Below, one piece after another: positions 4,415 through 29,404 of a stretch of 35,186 bases of DNA (within the stretch, counting starts at the first letter, position 1; each line of letters opens with the position of its first letter). The position numbers and the translations under genes are program-made. The DNA comes from Sulfuritalea sp. Lineage in GTDB: Bacteria > Pseudomonadota > Gammaproteobacteria > Burkholderiales > Rhodocyclaceae. A model generated the notes under the pieces. That model was not told the DNA's origin. It did no database searches and saw nothing but the letters and a program-made list of their open reading frames with translations. Where the stretch lies: NCBI GenBank assembly GCA_030696505.1, contig JAUYSD010000076.1, positions 1 to 35,186 on the forward strand. The letters run 5' to 3'.

Positions 4415-4430
4415 TGGCATGGATGATGCG
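4415..4430 (+). promoter_or_regulatory. Sigma-54 promoter of the flgB operon
   Basis: TGGCAT-GGATG-ATGCG has GG and GC separated by the required 10 bases and agrees with the sigma-54 consensus TGGCAC-N5-TTGCA at most positions. The element ends 46 bases before the flgB ATG. The same GGCAT core recurs in the flgE2 and fliK promoters. Confidence 0.7.
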
Positions 4431-6001: not shown

Positions 6002-7291
6002 ATGGGATTTCAACAAGGTTTGGCTGGACTCAATGCATCGTCGAAGGCGCTCGATACCATCGGCAACAACATTTCCAATGCCAGCACGGTCGGTTTCAAG
6101 ACCGGGCAAACGCAGTTCGCCGACGTCTTCGCGGCATCTCTTTCCGGTGCCGGCGCGGCACCGGTGGGCCTCGGCACCAAGGTTGCCGCCGTGGTTCAGC
6201 AATTTACCCAGGGCAGCATCGGTGTCACCAACAATCCGCTCGATATTGCGATCAACGGCGGCGGTTTCTTCCAGATGGACGACGGCAACGGCGCCACTGT
6301 GTATACCCGCAACGGACAGTTCCAACTCGACCAGTCCGGCTACATCGTCAATGCCAACGGTTTGCAGCTGAAGGGCATCATGGCCACCCGCGGCGTGATT
6401 GCCCCGGGATCGCCTTCGGTGCCGCTGCGTCTGTTCGATCCGTCGCAGAGCCTGGCCGGCCCGCCGCAGCAAACCGGCGGCAGCCCAGGCAACCTGGGCC
6501 TGCAGGTCAACGTCAATCTCGATGCCCGCGTGGCGCCGCCAGCCGATCCGACCTTCGACTACAACAATCCGCGCACCTACAATCAGTCCACGGCGGTCAC
6601 CATCTACGACAGCCTGGGCAACCCCCACACTTATTCGATGTATTTCGTCAAGGGCGTCGCGGCCAGCAGCTGGGACGTCTATGCCGCGGTGAGCAATCCG
6701 CCGGGTGCCGTGCCGACCGTCACGGACCTGTCCGCCGGCGGTCCGCTGGGAACCCTGAGCTTCGACTCTACTGGCACGCTGACCTCGGCGCCCTTCACCG
6801 CCGTCGTGACCGATGCCGACCTGGGCTACACCGGAGCCGTGAATTCCCTGTCCTTCCCGGTGGTCTTCGATGGGACTACGCAGTTCGGCTCGGACTTCTC
6901 GGTCAATGCGATGATTCAGGACGGCTATGGTTCGGGAACCCTGGCCGGATTCAACATCGGCAAGGACGGCATCATTCTCGGCCGCTACACCAACGGCCAA
7001 TCGACCGAAGTCGGCCAGGTCATTCTCGCCTCCTTCCGCAATCCGCAAGGCATGCAACCGCTCGGCGACAACGTCTGGGCGCAGTCCTCGACCAGCGGTG
7101 ACCGCATCGTCGGCACTCCCGGATCGACGGGTCAGTACGGCGTGCTGCAGTCCGCCGCGCTCGAAGAGTCGAATGTCGATCTGACCGCCGAGCTGGTGAC
7201 CATGATCACCATGCAAAGGTCGTATCAGGCCAACGCGCAGACGATCAAGACGCAGGACAGCATTCTGCAGACCCTGGTCAACCTGCGCTGA
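6002..7291 (+). CDS. flgE: Flagellar hook protein FlgE
   Basis: A 429-residue hook subunit. The N-terminal region has the family pattern GLAGLNASSKALDTIGNNIS, then VGFKTGQTQFADVF and a D0/D1 segment (GVTNNPLDIAINGGGFFQM). The D2 region (about 130-330) is the variable outer part. The C-terminus carries ALEESNVDLTAELVTMITM and RSYQANAQTIKTQD, which form the inner D0 helix. Length is slightly above enteric FlgE (about 400). Its place right after its cap gene flgD marks it as the main hook gene; a paralog follows flgF. Confidence 0.96.
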   Translation: MGFQQGLAGLNASSKALDTIGNNISNASTVGFKTGQTQFADVFAASLSGAGAAPVGLGTKVAAVVQQFTQGSIGVTNNPLDIAINGGGFFQMDDGNGATVYTRNGQFQLDQSGYIVNANGLQLKGIMATRGVIAPGSPSVPLRLFDPSQSLAGPPQQTGGSPGNLGLQVNVNLDARVAPPADPTFDYNNPRTYNQSTAVTIYDSLGNPHTYSMYFVKGVAASSWDVYAAVSNPPGAVPTVTDLSAGGPLGTLSFDSTGTLTSAPFTAVVTDADLGYTGAVNSLSFPVVFDGTTQFGSDFSVNAMIQDGYGSGTLAGFNIGKDGIILGRYTNGQSTEVGQVILASFRNPQGMQPLGDNVWAQSSTSGDRIVGTPGSTGQYGVLQSAALEESNVDLTAELVTMITMQRSYQANAQTIKTQDSILQTLVNLR

Positions 7292-7328: not shown

Positions 7329-8081
7329 ATGGACAGGATGATCTACACGGCGATGAGCGGTGCCAGCCAGACCATGAGCCGGCAGGCCGCCGTGGGCCAC
7401 AACCTGGCCAACGCCAACACCACCGGCTACCGCGCCGAAGAGCACCGCCTGCGGGCGGTGCCGGTGCTGTCCCATGCCACGCAGAAGGGTTTGCCGACCC
7501 GCGCCTTCGCCATGGATGCCAGCACCCATACCGACTTCACCCCGGGGCCGATGGTGCATACCGCGCGACCGCTGGATCTGGCGGTGCAGGGGCCCGGCTG
7601 GATTGCGCTGCAGATGCCGGACGGCAGCGAGGCGTATACCCGTAACGGCAGTTTCGAACTCAACGTGAATGGCATCGTGCAGACGCGCAGCGGCATTCCG
7701 GTGATGGGCGACGGCGGTCCGATCTCCATTCCCCCCGACGTGAAGCTCAGCATCGGCGGCGACGGCACGATCTCCGCGCTGCCCGAGTCGGGCGCCCAGA
7801 ACACGGTCAGCGTGATCAGCCGTTTCAAGCTGGTGAATCCGCCCCAGGCCGACCTGGTGCGTGGCGACGACGGCTATTTTCGCCTGCGCGACGGCGAACC
7901 GGCGCCCGCCGACGAGAAGGTGATGGTGCTTGGCGGGAGCCTTGAGGGCAGCAACGTGAATCCGGCAGAACAGATGGTGAACATGATTTCCCTGGCGCGA
8001 CAGTTCGAGATGCAGATGAAACTGGTGTCGGCAGCCGATGCCAACGACCGCGCCGCAACCCAGATTCTGGCGACCCGCTGA
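7329..8081 (+). CDS. flgF: Flagellar basal body rod protein FlgF
   Basis: A 250-residue proximal rod protein. It starts MDRMIYTAMSGASQTMSRQ, as FlgF proteins do, followed by HNLANANTTGYRAEEHRL. The D1 part includes MVHTARPLDLAVQGPGWIAL and YTRNGSFELNVNGIVQT, and the C-terminal signature is GGSLEGSNVNPAEQMVNMI with ARQFEMQMKLV. Length matches the family (about 250). It begins 37 bases after flgE. Its 3' end is followed by a sigma-54 promoter serving the second hook-type gene. Confidence 0.95.
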   Translation: MDRMIYTAMSGASQTMSRQAAVGHNLANANTTGYRAEEHRLRAVPVLSHATQKGLPTRAFAMDASTHTDFTPGPMVHTARPLDLAVQGPGWIALQMPDGSEAYTRNGSFELNVNGIVQTRSGIPVMGDGGPISIPPDVKLSIGGDGTISALPESGAQNTVSVISRFKLVNPPQADLVRGDDGYFRLRDGEPAPADEKVMVLGGSLEGSNVNPAEQMVNMISLARQFEMQMKLVSAADANDRAATQILATR

Positions 8082-8085
8082 TTCC

Positions 8086-8101
8086 GGGCATGGGGCTTGC
8101 A
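8086..8101 (+). promoter_or_regulatory. Sigma-54 promoter before the second flgE-type gene
   Basis: GGGCAT-GGGGC-TTGCA has the GG-N10-GC spacing and a perfect TTGCA -12 element; it departs from the consensus TGGCAC-N5-TTGCA only at the first and sixth positions. It begins 4 bases after the flgF stop and ends 56 bases before the ATG at 8158. A transcript from here could run on into flgG and beyond. Confidence 0.68.
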
Positions 8102-8157
8102 TAGTTGCAGGCACGGACGCCCGAGCTTGGTGCGAGACGAACAGGAAGGAATGAGAC

Positions 8158-9522
8158 ATGGCCTTAGCAAACAGCCTTAGCGGATTGATCGCCGCGGCGA
8201 AAGCCCTCGACGTGGTCGGCAACAACATCGCGAATTCGCAGACCATCGGCTTCAAGTCGTCGATTGCGCGCTTCACCAACGTGTCCGCCGCCGGCAAGTC
8301 GAGCGGACCGTCCGACACCGGATCGAGCGCCGGCGTCAGCGCCGACAACATCTTCCAGCAGTTCGGGCAGGGCCAGGTCGAGCTCAGCGACAAGCCGCTC
8401 GACATGGCGATCAACGGGCTGGGCTTCTTCCGCCTCTACAACCCGGAGACCAACCGGGTTTCATATACGCGCGACGGCCAGTTCGGGCTCGCCTTCGAAG
8501 GCGACGGCTTTGCCAAGCTGGTGACGCGCACCGGACTGTGTCTGACCGGGAATGTGCCCAGCTTCGGCAGCGATCCCTTCGGCACCATCGCCGCGACGCC
8601 TACGCCGGTGCCGCTGGTCATCGATCCTTTCTTCCCGCCGCGGGCGACCGCGGTGGTCAATGCCAGCCTCAACCTCGATGTCCGCGTCGCGGCGCCGATG
8701 GCACCCTTCGATGCCGCCGATCCCTTGACCTACAACGGGTCCGCCTCATCCACCGTATTCGATGCCGCCGGCGCGGCGCACGACCTGCGGGTTTATTTTG
8801 TCAAGCCCGGTCCGGCCAGTGTCTGGCAGGTCTATTCGACGCTGGACTACAACGCCAATGCGGTACCGGCCCAGGTGCCGACGGTCAGCGGGCCGATCGA
8901 CCTGACCTTCGACCTGCGCGGTGCCGTCAGTCCGCCGACGCCTTCGCCGGTCCAGAGCTACACCCTGCCCGATGGCAGCGCCGTCGCCATCAGCTTCGAC
9001 TTTACCGGTACCACCCAGAACGTCGACTACAGCAGCACCACCCAGTTCGGCACCGCGTTCAGCGTCAATGCGCTGGCTCAGGATGGCTATACCGCGGGCA
9101 GAATCCAGGACCCCAACGAATTCAACGTGCAGGCCGACGGTCGCATCATCGCGCGCTATTCCAATGGGCAGCAGCGCACCGTGGCGCAACTCGTGCTCGC
9201 CAATTTCGCCAATCCGAATGCCCTGATCAATACCGGGGACAACCAGTGGGTGGCGAACGAAGATCCGCTGCGCGGCACCGGCGCGGTGAGTCTCGGTTTC
9301 CCCAAGTTTTCCACCGAGAAACTCAGCGGCTTTGCCGGCGACAGCGATCCGGCCGAAGGCATGGGATCGATCCAGGGCCGTGCCCGGGAAATGTCCAATG
9401 TCGACCTGGCGACCGAACTGGTGTCGCTGATCGAGCAGCAGCGCAACTACCAGGCCAGCGCCCAGACATTCAAGATCCTCGACCAGGTGCTGCAGAACCT
9501 GGCGAACATGCGCTCGAATTGA
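8158..9522 (+). CDS. Second flagellar hook-type protein (FlgE paralog)
   Basis: A 454-residue protein of the FlgE/FlgF/FlgG family, closest in plan to FlgE. Its N-terminus reads SLSGLIAAAKALDVVGNNIA then TIGFKSSIARFTNVS, followed by ELSDKPLDMAINGLGFFRL. The middle shares FlgE-type landmarks with the first copy (TTQFGTAFSVNALAQDGYTAG; RIIARYSNGQQRTVAQLVLA). The C-terminus is EMSNVDLATELVSLIEQQRN with YQASAQTFKILDQVL. It is 25 residues longer than the first FlgE, with extra sequence in the outer domain and before the C-terminal helix. Translation is backed by GGAAGGA before ATG 8158. No frameshift or loss of a terminal motif is seen, so it should be functional. Whether it is an alternative hook subunit, a minor hook component or a rod-hook adaptor is open; a second flgE between flgF and flgG is unusual. 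Confidence 0.9.
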   Translation: MALANSLSGLIAAAKALDVVGNNIANSQTIGFKSSIARFTNVSAAGKSSGPSDTGSSAGVSADNIFQQFGQGQVELSDKPLDMAINGLGFFRLYNPETNRVSYTRDGQFGLAFEGDGFAKLVTRTGLCLTGNVPSFGSDPFGTIAATPTPVPLVIDPFFPPRATAVVNASLNLDVRVAAPMAPFDAADPLTYNGSASSTVFDAAGAAHDLRVYFVKPGPASVWQVYSTLDYNANAVPAQVPTVSGPIDLTFDLRGAVSPPTPSPVQSYTLPDGSAVAISFDFTGTTQNVDYSSTTQFGTAFSVNALAQDGYTAGRIQDPNEFNVQADGRIIARYSNGQQRTVAQLVLANFANPNALINTGDNQWVANEDPLRGTGAVSLGFPKFSTEKLSGFAGDSDPAEGMGSIQGRAREMSNVDLATELVSLIEQQRNYQASAQTFKILDQVLQNLANMRSN

Positions 9523-9616: not shown

Positions 9617-10399
9617 ATGATGCGTTCCCTCTGGATTGCCAAGACCGGTCTGGATGCCCATCAGACTTCGATGGACGTCATCACCAGCAACCTGGCCAAC
9701 GTCAGTACCACCGGCTTCAAGCGTTCGCGTCCGGTGTTCGAGGATCTGCTCTACCAGACCCTGCGCCAGCCGGGAACCTCCTCGTCGCAGGCGACCACCA
9801 TTCCATCCGGCCTGACCTTGGGCACCGGCGTCCGCGTGGTCGCCACCGAGCACATCTTTACCCAGGGCACGGTACAGAAGACCGACAATCCGCTCGACCT
9901 GGCGATCCAGGGCAACGGCTTTTTCCAGATCCAGATGCCCGACGGTTCCGTCGCCTATACGCGGGACGGTTCCTTCACCAAGGATGCCAACGGCCTGATC
10001 GTCACCGCCAACGGCTACCCGGTGACGCCGCCGATCACGATTCCCGCAAACGCCCTTAGCGTGACCATCTCGCCCGACGGCATAGTCACTTACTCCCAGC
10101 CGGGCAGCAACGCGCCGCAACCGGCGGGCAACCTGCAACTGGTCGCCTTCGTCAATAACGGCGGCCTGCAGAGCACCGGGCAGAATCTCTTCGTCGAAAC
10201 CGCTTCCTCGGGAACCGGCACCCCGACCACGCCCGGCAGCAATGGTACCGGCCTGATCAACCAGGGCTATATCGAGACCTCCAACGTCAACGTGGCCGAG
10301 GAACTGGTCAACATGATCGTGGCACAGCGCGGCTACGAAATGAACTCGAAGGCCGTCACCACCTGCGACCAGATGCTGTCGCGCCTGACTCAACTCTAA
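9617..10399 (+). CDS. flgG: Flagellar distal rod protein FlgG
   Basis: A 260-residue distal rod subunit, the usual FlgG length. It starts [20 protein letters not shown] and continues with [20 protein letters not shown], the FlgG signature. The segment following [14 protein letters not shown] is the FlgG-specific stretch that stiffens the rod relative to the hook. [20 protein letters not shown] and the C-terminal [20 protein letters not shown] with [10 protein letters not shown] complete the family pattern. It begins 94 bases after the second flgE-type gene; that gap has no promoter I can support. AGGAG precedes the start. Confidence 0.96.
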
Positions 10400-13316: not shown

Positions 13317-13382
13317 ACGCCGCGTTCGCGGCGAGTCCGCGTCCGATGCTGGCACGCAGGTTGCTCTATCTCTGCTGAATCC

Positions 13383-29388: not shown

Positions 29389-29404
29389 TGGCGCGCGAAT
29401 TGCA
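29389..29404 (+). promoter_or_regulatory. Sigma-54 promoter of the hydrogenase operon
   Basis: TGGCGC-GCGAA-TTGCA matches the consensus TGGCAC-N5-TTGCA at all defined positions but one, with exact spacing. Transcription would begin near 29415, about 47 bases before the hybO ATG. Sigma-54 control through HoxA/HupR-type activators is known for uptake hydrogenases of other proteobacteria; the activator is not in the window. Confidence 0.85.

Follow-up and report, generated by a model that had tools for sequence, protein, structure and literature searches.

Second FlgE-like proteins are already known from flagella, one example being the protein named FlgE2 of Helicobacter pylori (5npy), which is reportedly the subject of a FEBS J 2017 paper. 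In the locus analysed here, from the freshwater genus Sulfuritalea, a second FlgE-family gene, for which we use the name flgE2, is present alongside canonical flgE and lies between flgF and flgG. Its product matches the H. pylori protein weakly by structure and by sequence, the only two respects in which we likened them, and is distant from it, with 14% identity in the structural match. The best match by both measures is FlgE (Salmonella 6jzt and 7cbm), with which it shares its domains and fold. With FlgG, the product of the neighbouring gene, it has the FlgE/F/G superfamily in common and covaries, but it differs from FlgG in having a D2 domain and in falling outside FlgG in the tree. Rigid rod and flexible hook consist of closely related proteins and are joined without an adaptor in the model flagellum; according to PMC5288503, the rod and hook of Salmonella are joined without a junction protein, and the hook-filament junction proteins FlgK and FlgL form a thin layer that adapts one axial tube to the next. 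The latter two serve here as an analogy of function, as FlgE2 belongs to another family. In the open-access literature, with subscription papers mostly outside the scope, we did not find flgE2 of Sulfuritalea, its operon place or its link to FlgG described.

The window, i.e. the whole stretch of 35,186 nucleotides that was analysed, carries on its plus strand flgB, flgC, flgD, flgE, flgF, flgE2, flgG, flgH, flgI, flgJ, flgK and flgL in this order, with the following features in and around the second hook-type gene:

6002..7291, plus strand: flgE, canonical hook protein gene, 429 aa (open reading frame, FlgE model match, tree).
7329..8081, plus strand: flgF, proximal rod protein gene (profile match).
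8086..8101, plus strand: sigma-54-like promoter site (2 mismatches to the consensus, within chance in the window; position kept in 8 of 18 genomes).
8143..8149, plus strand: AGGAAGG, likely ribosome-binding site of flgE2 (read off the sequence).
8158..9522, plus strand: flgE2, second FlgE-family gene, 454 aa (open reading frame, family domains, single clade inside FlgE, constant operon place in the genus).
9617..10399, plus strand: flgG, distal rod protein gene, here in its flgE2-associated form (profile match, 14 group-fixed differences, FlgG tree).
10319..10333, plus strand: FlgG codons 235-239, VAQRG here and QTQRA in 9 of 10 flgE2-less rows (coordinates computed from the gene start).

The two intact FlgE-family genes that an earlier note had reported for this cluster were recovered as open reading frames at the same positions, and the second is, as claimed, 25 residues longer than the first. 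When the genome from which the window comes was searched with FlgE2, five matches were obtained, all of them within the flagellar cluster. The Pfam rod N-terminal, D1, FlgE_D2 and C-terminal domains all scored above the gathering score in both FlgE and FlgE2. For both copies, the best model was NF004238 (FlgE), with 478 bits for FlgE and 331 bits for FlgE2, and both exceeded the cut-off of the broader subfamily model TIGR03506. By these profiles, FlgE2 is classified as a member of the FlgE family, but it stays under the 400-bit equivalog cut-off of NF004238. In a tree of 71 FlgE, FlgE2, FlgF and FlgG rows, which had been set beforehand as the check on a hook-type paralog, the 16 FlgE2 rows formed one clade (100/100) with a long stem inside FlgE and outside FlgF and FlgG. 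The earlier assignment as a hook-type copy is thus borne out, and a duplicate of flgF or flgG is ruled out. The best matches of an AlphaFold model of FlgE2 among solved structures were the hook proteins 7cbm and 6jzt, the mean pLDDT of the model being 65, with poorly predicted D0 end helices.

The frame of flgE2 was free of internal stops in all 17 genomes in which a contig end leaves the gene uncut. When the protein was compared region by region, with borders set by us, conservation was highest in the D0 end helices, the parts that form the axial tube, and FlgE2 evolved faster than FlgE in 7/7 regions. The dN/dS values relative to the two nearest genomes were about 0.08 and 0.12 for FlgE2 and 0.03 for FlgE, indicating purifying selection on FlgE2 that is looser than on FlgE.

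Among 31 Sulfuritalea genomes, 21 had an FlgE or FlgE2 match at E<=1e-20 and 20 an FlgG match at E<=1e-60. The gene flgE2 was found in 19 of the 31, a majority of the flagellated members, namely in 18 genomes (one copy cut; the contig of G016 ends inside flgE2) and in G021, where the C-terminal part lies directly before flgG. The place of the gene between flgF and flgG is conserved in the genus. Two congeners, G012 and G026, are devoid of flgE2 and have the end of flgE, flgF and flgG consecutively on one contig. Neither an FlgE nor an FlgG match was found in 10 of the 31 genomes; several of these ten are incomplete assemblies, and several are 97-99% complete. Flagella seem to have been lost repeatedly in Sulfuritalea, judging from these gene contents.

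Outside the genus, no FlgE2 orthologue was found at E<=1e-76 in 395 sampled genomes of the family, Sulfuritalea ones included. At E<=1e-72, and apart from the window's own, matches to FlgE2 were obtained in 10 of 399 genomes of the order (best 4e-80) and in 1 of 369 genomes of the class, the latter being one of the former ten, and all of them were single flgE genes. We inspected 37 outside-genus loci (27 from the family, 10 from the order), and in each of them the match immediately precedes flgF, so that flgE is its best interpretation. The flgG start follows at less than 200 bases from flgF in 33 of the 37; the gap is about 290 bases in L046, and L037 and L044 end. On a contig represented by two loci (G092:C1; L036, L158), flgB to flgF are present and the next 6 kb hold no flgG, no hook gene and none of the remaining flg genes used as queries. 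A widespread flgE2 arrangement is ruled out within the sampled genomes and at these thresholds (E<=1e-76 for the family, E<=1e-72 for order and class), where the samples are parts of larger groups and second hook genes that are more distant, or lie in other genomes, could escape.

With regard to ancestry, the tree tests speak against FlgE2 having been copied recently from the FlgE of Sulfuritalea: a clade confined to these two was rejected (p=4e-5). A clade of FlgE2, Sulfuritalea FlgE and one sister-genus FlgE was not rejected (p=0.33). The duplication may predate the genus, or the gene may stem from an unsampled lineage, with long-branch attraction between stems as a possible influence on the placement.

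The main new result is that the type of FlgG covaries with the presence of flgE2. We compared the 11 proteins FlgB to FlgL between 16 flgE2-bearing genomes, the 2 flgE2-less congeners and 8 genomes of other genera; for some proteins the number of rows was smaller. For 10 of the 11, the flgE2-less pair was nearer to its own genus than to the other genera. The sign was reversed for FlgG alone, for which the pair was nearer to the other genera (-0.079; bootstrap range -0.117 to -0.046), and the flgE2-bearing FlgG rows formed a 100/100 clade. A second measure, the extra distance of the flgE2-bearing rows from other genera compared to the pair, was also largest for FlgG (0.081) and slightly above zero for FlgC, FlgI, FlgK and FlgL (0.016 to 0.035). 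Group-fixed differences, defined by a majority of at least 80% on both sides, occupied 14 of 260 columns in FlgG compared to 20 of 3103 in the ten other flg proteins (Fisher p=7e-8, with kinship and column dependence ignored). Six of the 14 positions (15, 19, 23, 235, 236 and 239) lie in the two end helices of FlgG, and the segment 235-239 reads VAQRG in 16/16 flgE2-bearing rows and QTQRA in 9/10 of the others. Salmonella FlgG has M19 and QVQRA in the alignment, so that L19M is nothing special by itself. The low numbers of group-fixed differences in FlgD (1/224), FlgE (3/407), FlgF (3) and FlgK (6/633) indicate that the change is centred on FlgG.

The history of the flgE2-less pair was read differently by different genes. 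Trees with the pair outside the flgE2-bearing genomes were rejected by FlgE (p=0.001), FlgJ (p=6e-5) and rpoB DNA (p=4e-4), while FlgG rejected two nested placements of the pair (p=6e-6 and 2e-8) and the FlgF tree leaned to the pair outside (91). No decision was obtained on this placement from FlgB, FlgC, FlgD, FlgH, FlgI, FlgK and FlgL or from rpoB protein (p=0.107). A concatenation of FlgB, FlgC, FlgD, FlgH and FlgI united the flgE2-bearing genomes weakly (56/13), and the pair was nested when FlgF and FlgJ were added (98/98 and 100/99). For rpoB, there was no match in G017, G021, G028 and G029 and a partial one in G012 and G016, and G007 was left out of the later tests for its aberrant long branch. 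This rpoB copy (L152), with its very long branch in the rpoB tree, may come from a foreign contig in the assembly. By these trees, the pair would either have lost flgE2 and regained an ordinary FlgG, or both features would have arisen after the pair had split. Under loss and under later gain alike, flgE2 and the FlgG type would go together.

A role for FlgE2 has to account for an intact, selected gene of the FlgE clade with a fixed operon place that is confined to flagellated Sulfuritalea among the sampled genomes and covaries with FlgG. A position at the junction of proximal and distal rod cannot be derived from the gene order, on which the earlier note had leaned: FlgD and FlgE act after the rod and yet their genes precede flgF, so that gene order cannot place FlgE2. 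Our preferred, albeit tentative, reading is that FlgE2 is a working axial protein stacked on FlgG as a segment of the hook base or of the rod-hook junction. The flgE2 product would be exported and would polymerise in the manner of FlgE, as a further axial protein of the FlgE family in the same flagellum. A short stretch of it would sit immediately on top of the distal rod formed by FlgG, as rod-hook junction or bottom of the hook, and ordinary FlgE would build the remaining hook on it. That FlgE2 is built into the axis, touches FlgG and lies below FlgE is what we infer, and a contact between FlgE2 and FlgG would best explain why FlgG changed with far smaller changes in FlgD, FlgE, FlgF and FlgK. 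A stricter version, in which FlgE2 is a dedicated junction protein between FlgG and FlgE and the end helices of FlgG are altered to receive it, is possible but doubtful.

An adaptor between rod and hook was one of the options listed in the earlier note, and the covariation of FlgG and FlgE2 lends it independent support that falls short of proof. The fixed place of the gene, its open frames, its well-kept D0 helices, the standing of FlgG as the sole protein of 11 with reversed distance, its share of fixed differences and the single FliK gene seen in the window are all consistent with a junction. Other points weigh against it. The covariation is marked with FlgG and not with FlgE, which would be the upper neighbour of FlgE2 in such a junction, and it is based on one or two evolutionary events. 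As flgE2 and flgG are adjacent, a single recombination event could carry the two together even if they are not functionally coupled. Moreover, FlgC, FlgI, FlgK and FlgL share the tendency of FlgG, though far more weakly, the trees conflict over a loss of flgE2 in the pair, and the D0 helices are the poorly predicted part of the model.

FlgE2 could instead be an alternative or co-polymerising hook subunit that is mixed with FlgE or replaces it conditionally, with separate regulation by sigma-54 in some members of the genus. The presence of every hook domain including D2, the hook proteins as top structural matches and the promoter-like site in 8 of 18 genomes fit this. A full replacement, however, should also meet FlgK and FlgD, where few differences are fixed, and we regard this explanation as rather unlikely. 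We give still less credit to flgE2 and flgG being a neighbour cassette moved or lost by recombination, with the change in FlgG as a passenger and FlgE2 as a minor flagellar protein with no special bond to FlgG. The genes do adjoin, and FlgG disagrees with FlgE, FlgJ and rpoB DNA over the placement of the flgE2-less pair. Against this, the search for a donor whose FlgG is closer found none: FlgG gave 3 outside-genus matches in 399 genomes of the order at E<=1e-118, with 72-73% identity and from the same family. In addition, FlgG has a long stem in spite of its otherwise slow evolution. A decaying or useless duplicate, to which the fast evolution of FlgE2 and the two congeners without it might point, is very improbable in view of the uninterrupted frames, the low dN/dS, the single clade and the retained D0 helices.

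If FlgE2 were a dedicated rod-hook junction protein stacked on FlgG, it would add another type of axial joint to those of flagella, and the two congeners, by losing flgE2 and returning to an ordinary FlgG, would present a natural reversal. A third protein of the family and an FlgG that differs in step with it would offer a direct handle on what specifies the switch from rod to hook, with the two flgE2-less congeners as a natural control.

The note had further proposed that flgE2 has its own sigma-54 promoter. The site, GGGCATGGGGCTTGCA at 8086-8101, is located as claimed, four bases past the flgF stop and with the GG-N10-GC spacing. The sigma-54 consensus used for the scan was TGGCACGNNNNTTGCW, with the boxes TGGCAC and TTGCA-like. 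With up to 2 mismatches allowed, 6 sites were found in the window compared to a mean of 8.1 in shuffles, which is not above chance. The entire gap between flgF and flgE2 is available in 18 genomes; 8 of them have a match in the corresponding position, five with 1 mismatch and varied spacer letters, and 10 lack it. RpoN and FlhD were each found in 5/5 genomes searched. A separate sigma-54 promoter of flgE2 is weakly supported by these data. Such control is credible for one subclade, given that the genus has RpoN and carries a perfect sigma-54 site ahead of flgK, and would be no defining part of the arrangement.

The same gap holds a short leader frame of 10-25 codons in 12 of the 18 genomes, with its ATG 8-9 bases after the flgF stop and its end no more than 12 bases away from where flgE2 starts. 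Two further loci (L010 and L021, one with GTG) also fit the pattern once a shorter flgF match is allowed for. Counted without a chance control, the leader frame is present in 10/10 genomes without the promoter site and in 4/8 with it (leader-frame loci include L008, L010 and L015-L022). That the site of the latter eight is merely the start of a small frame was dropped as an explanation, as two genomes shift the ATG yet keep the boxes. In 8/8 outside-genus loci, flgG starts 9-15 bases past the flgF stop, and the leader frame is perhaps a relic of an old flgG start, left when flgE2 entered.

A perfect sigma-54 consensus is present at 13350-13365 in the window, 83 bases before flgK. Perfect sites were found in the window and 16 further loci of the genus, i.e. 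in every locus searched apart from L071, whose sequence stops short of flgK; the distance, where worked out (window, L117, L128), was 83 bases. In loci of other genera reaching flgK, 4/5 have a perfect site, at 83 bases in three and at about 87 in one. The flgK site, in genomes that also have FlhD, suggests RpoN control within a cascade of the FlhDC type.

Canonical FlgE, about 430 aa in the window, is enlarged to 559 aa in L069 (G003) and to 513 aa in L071 (G028). The sequence TGGCATGGATGATGCG is located at 4415-4430 just before flgB, with 1-mismatch versions in a like place in L069, L074 and L117, and is a possible sigma-54 promoter of the flgB operon. A one-mismatch sigma-54-like site at 29389-29404 lies about 280 bases before a gene cluster for iron-sulfur and NiFe-hydrogenase proteins (29668 onward).
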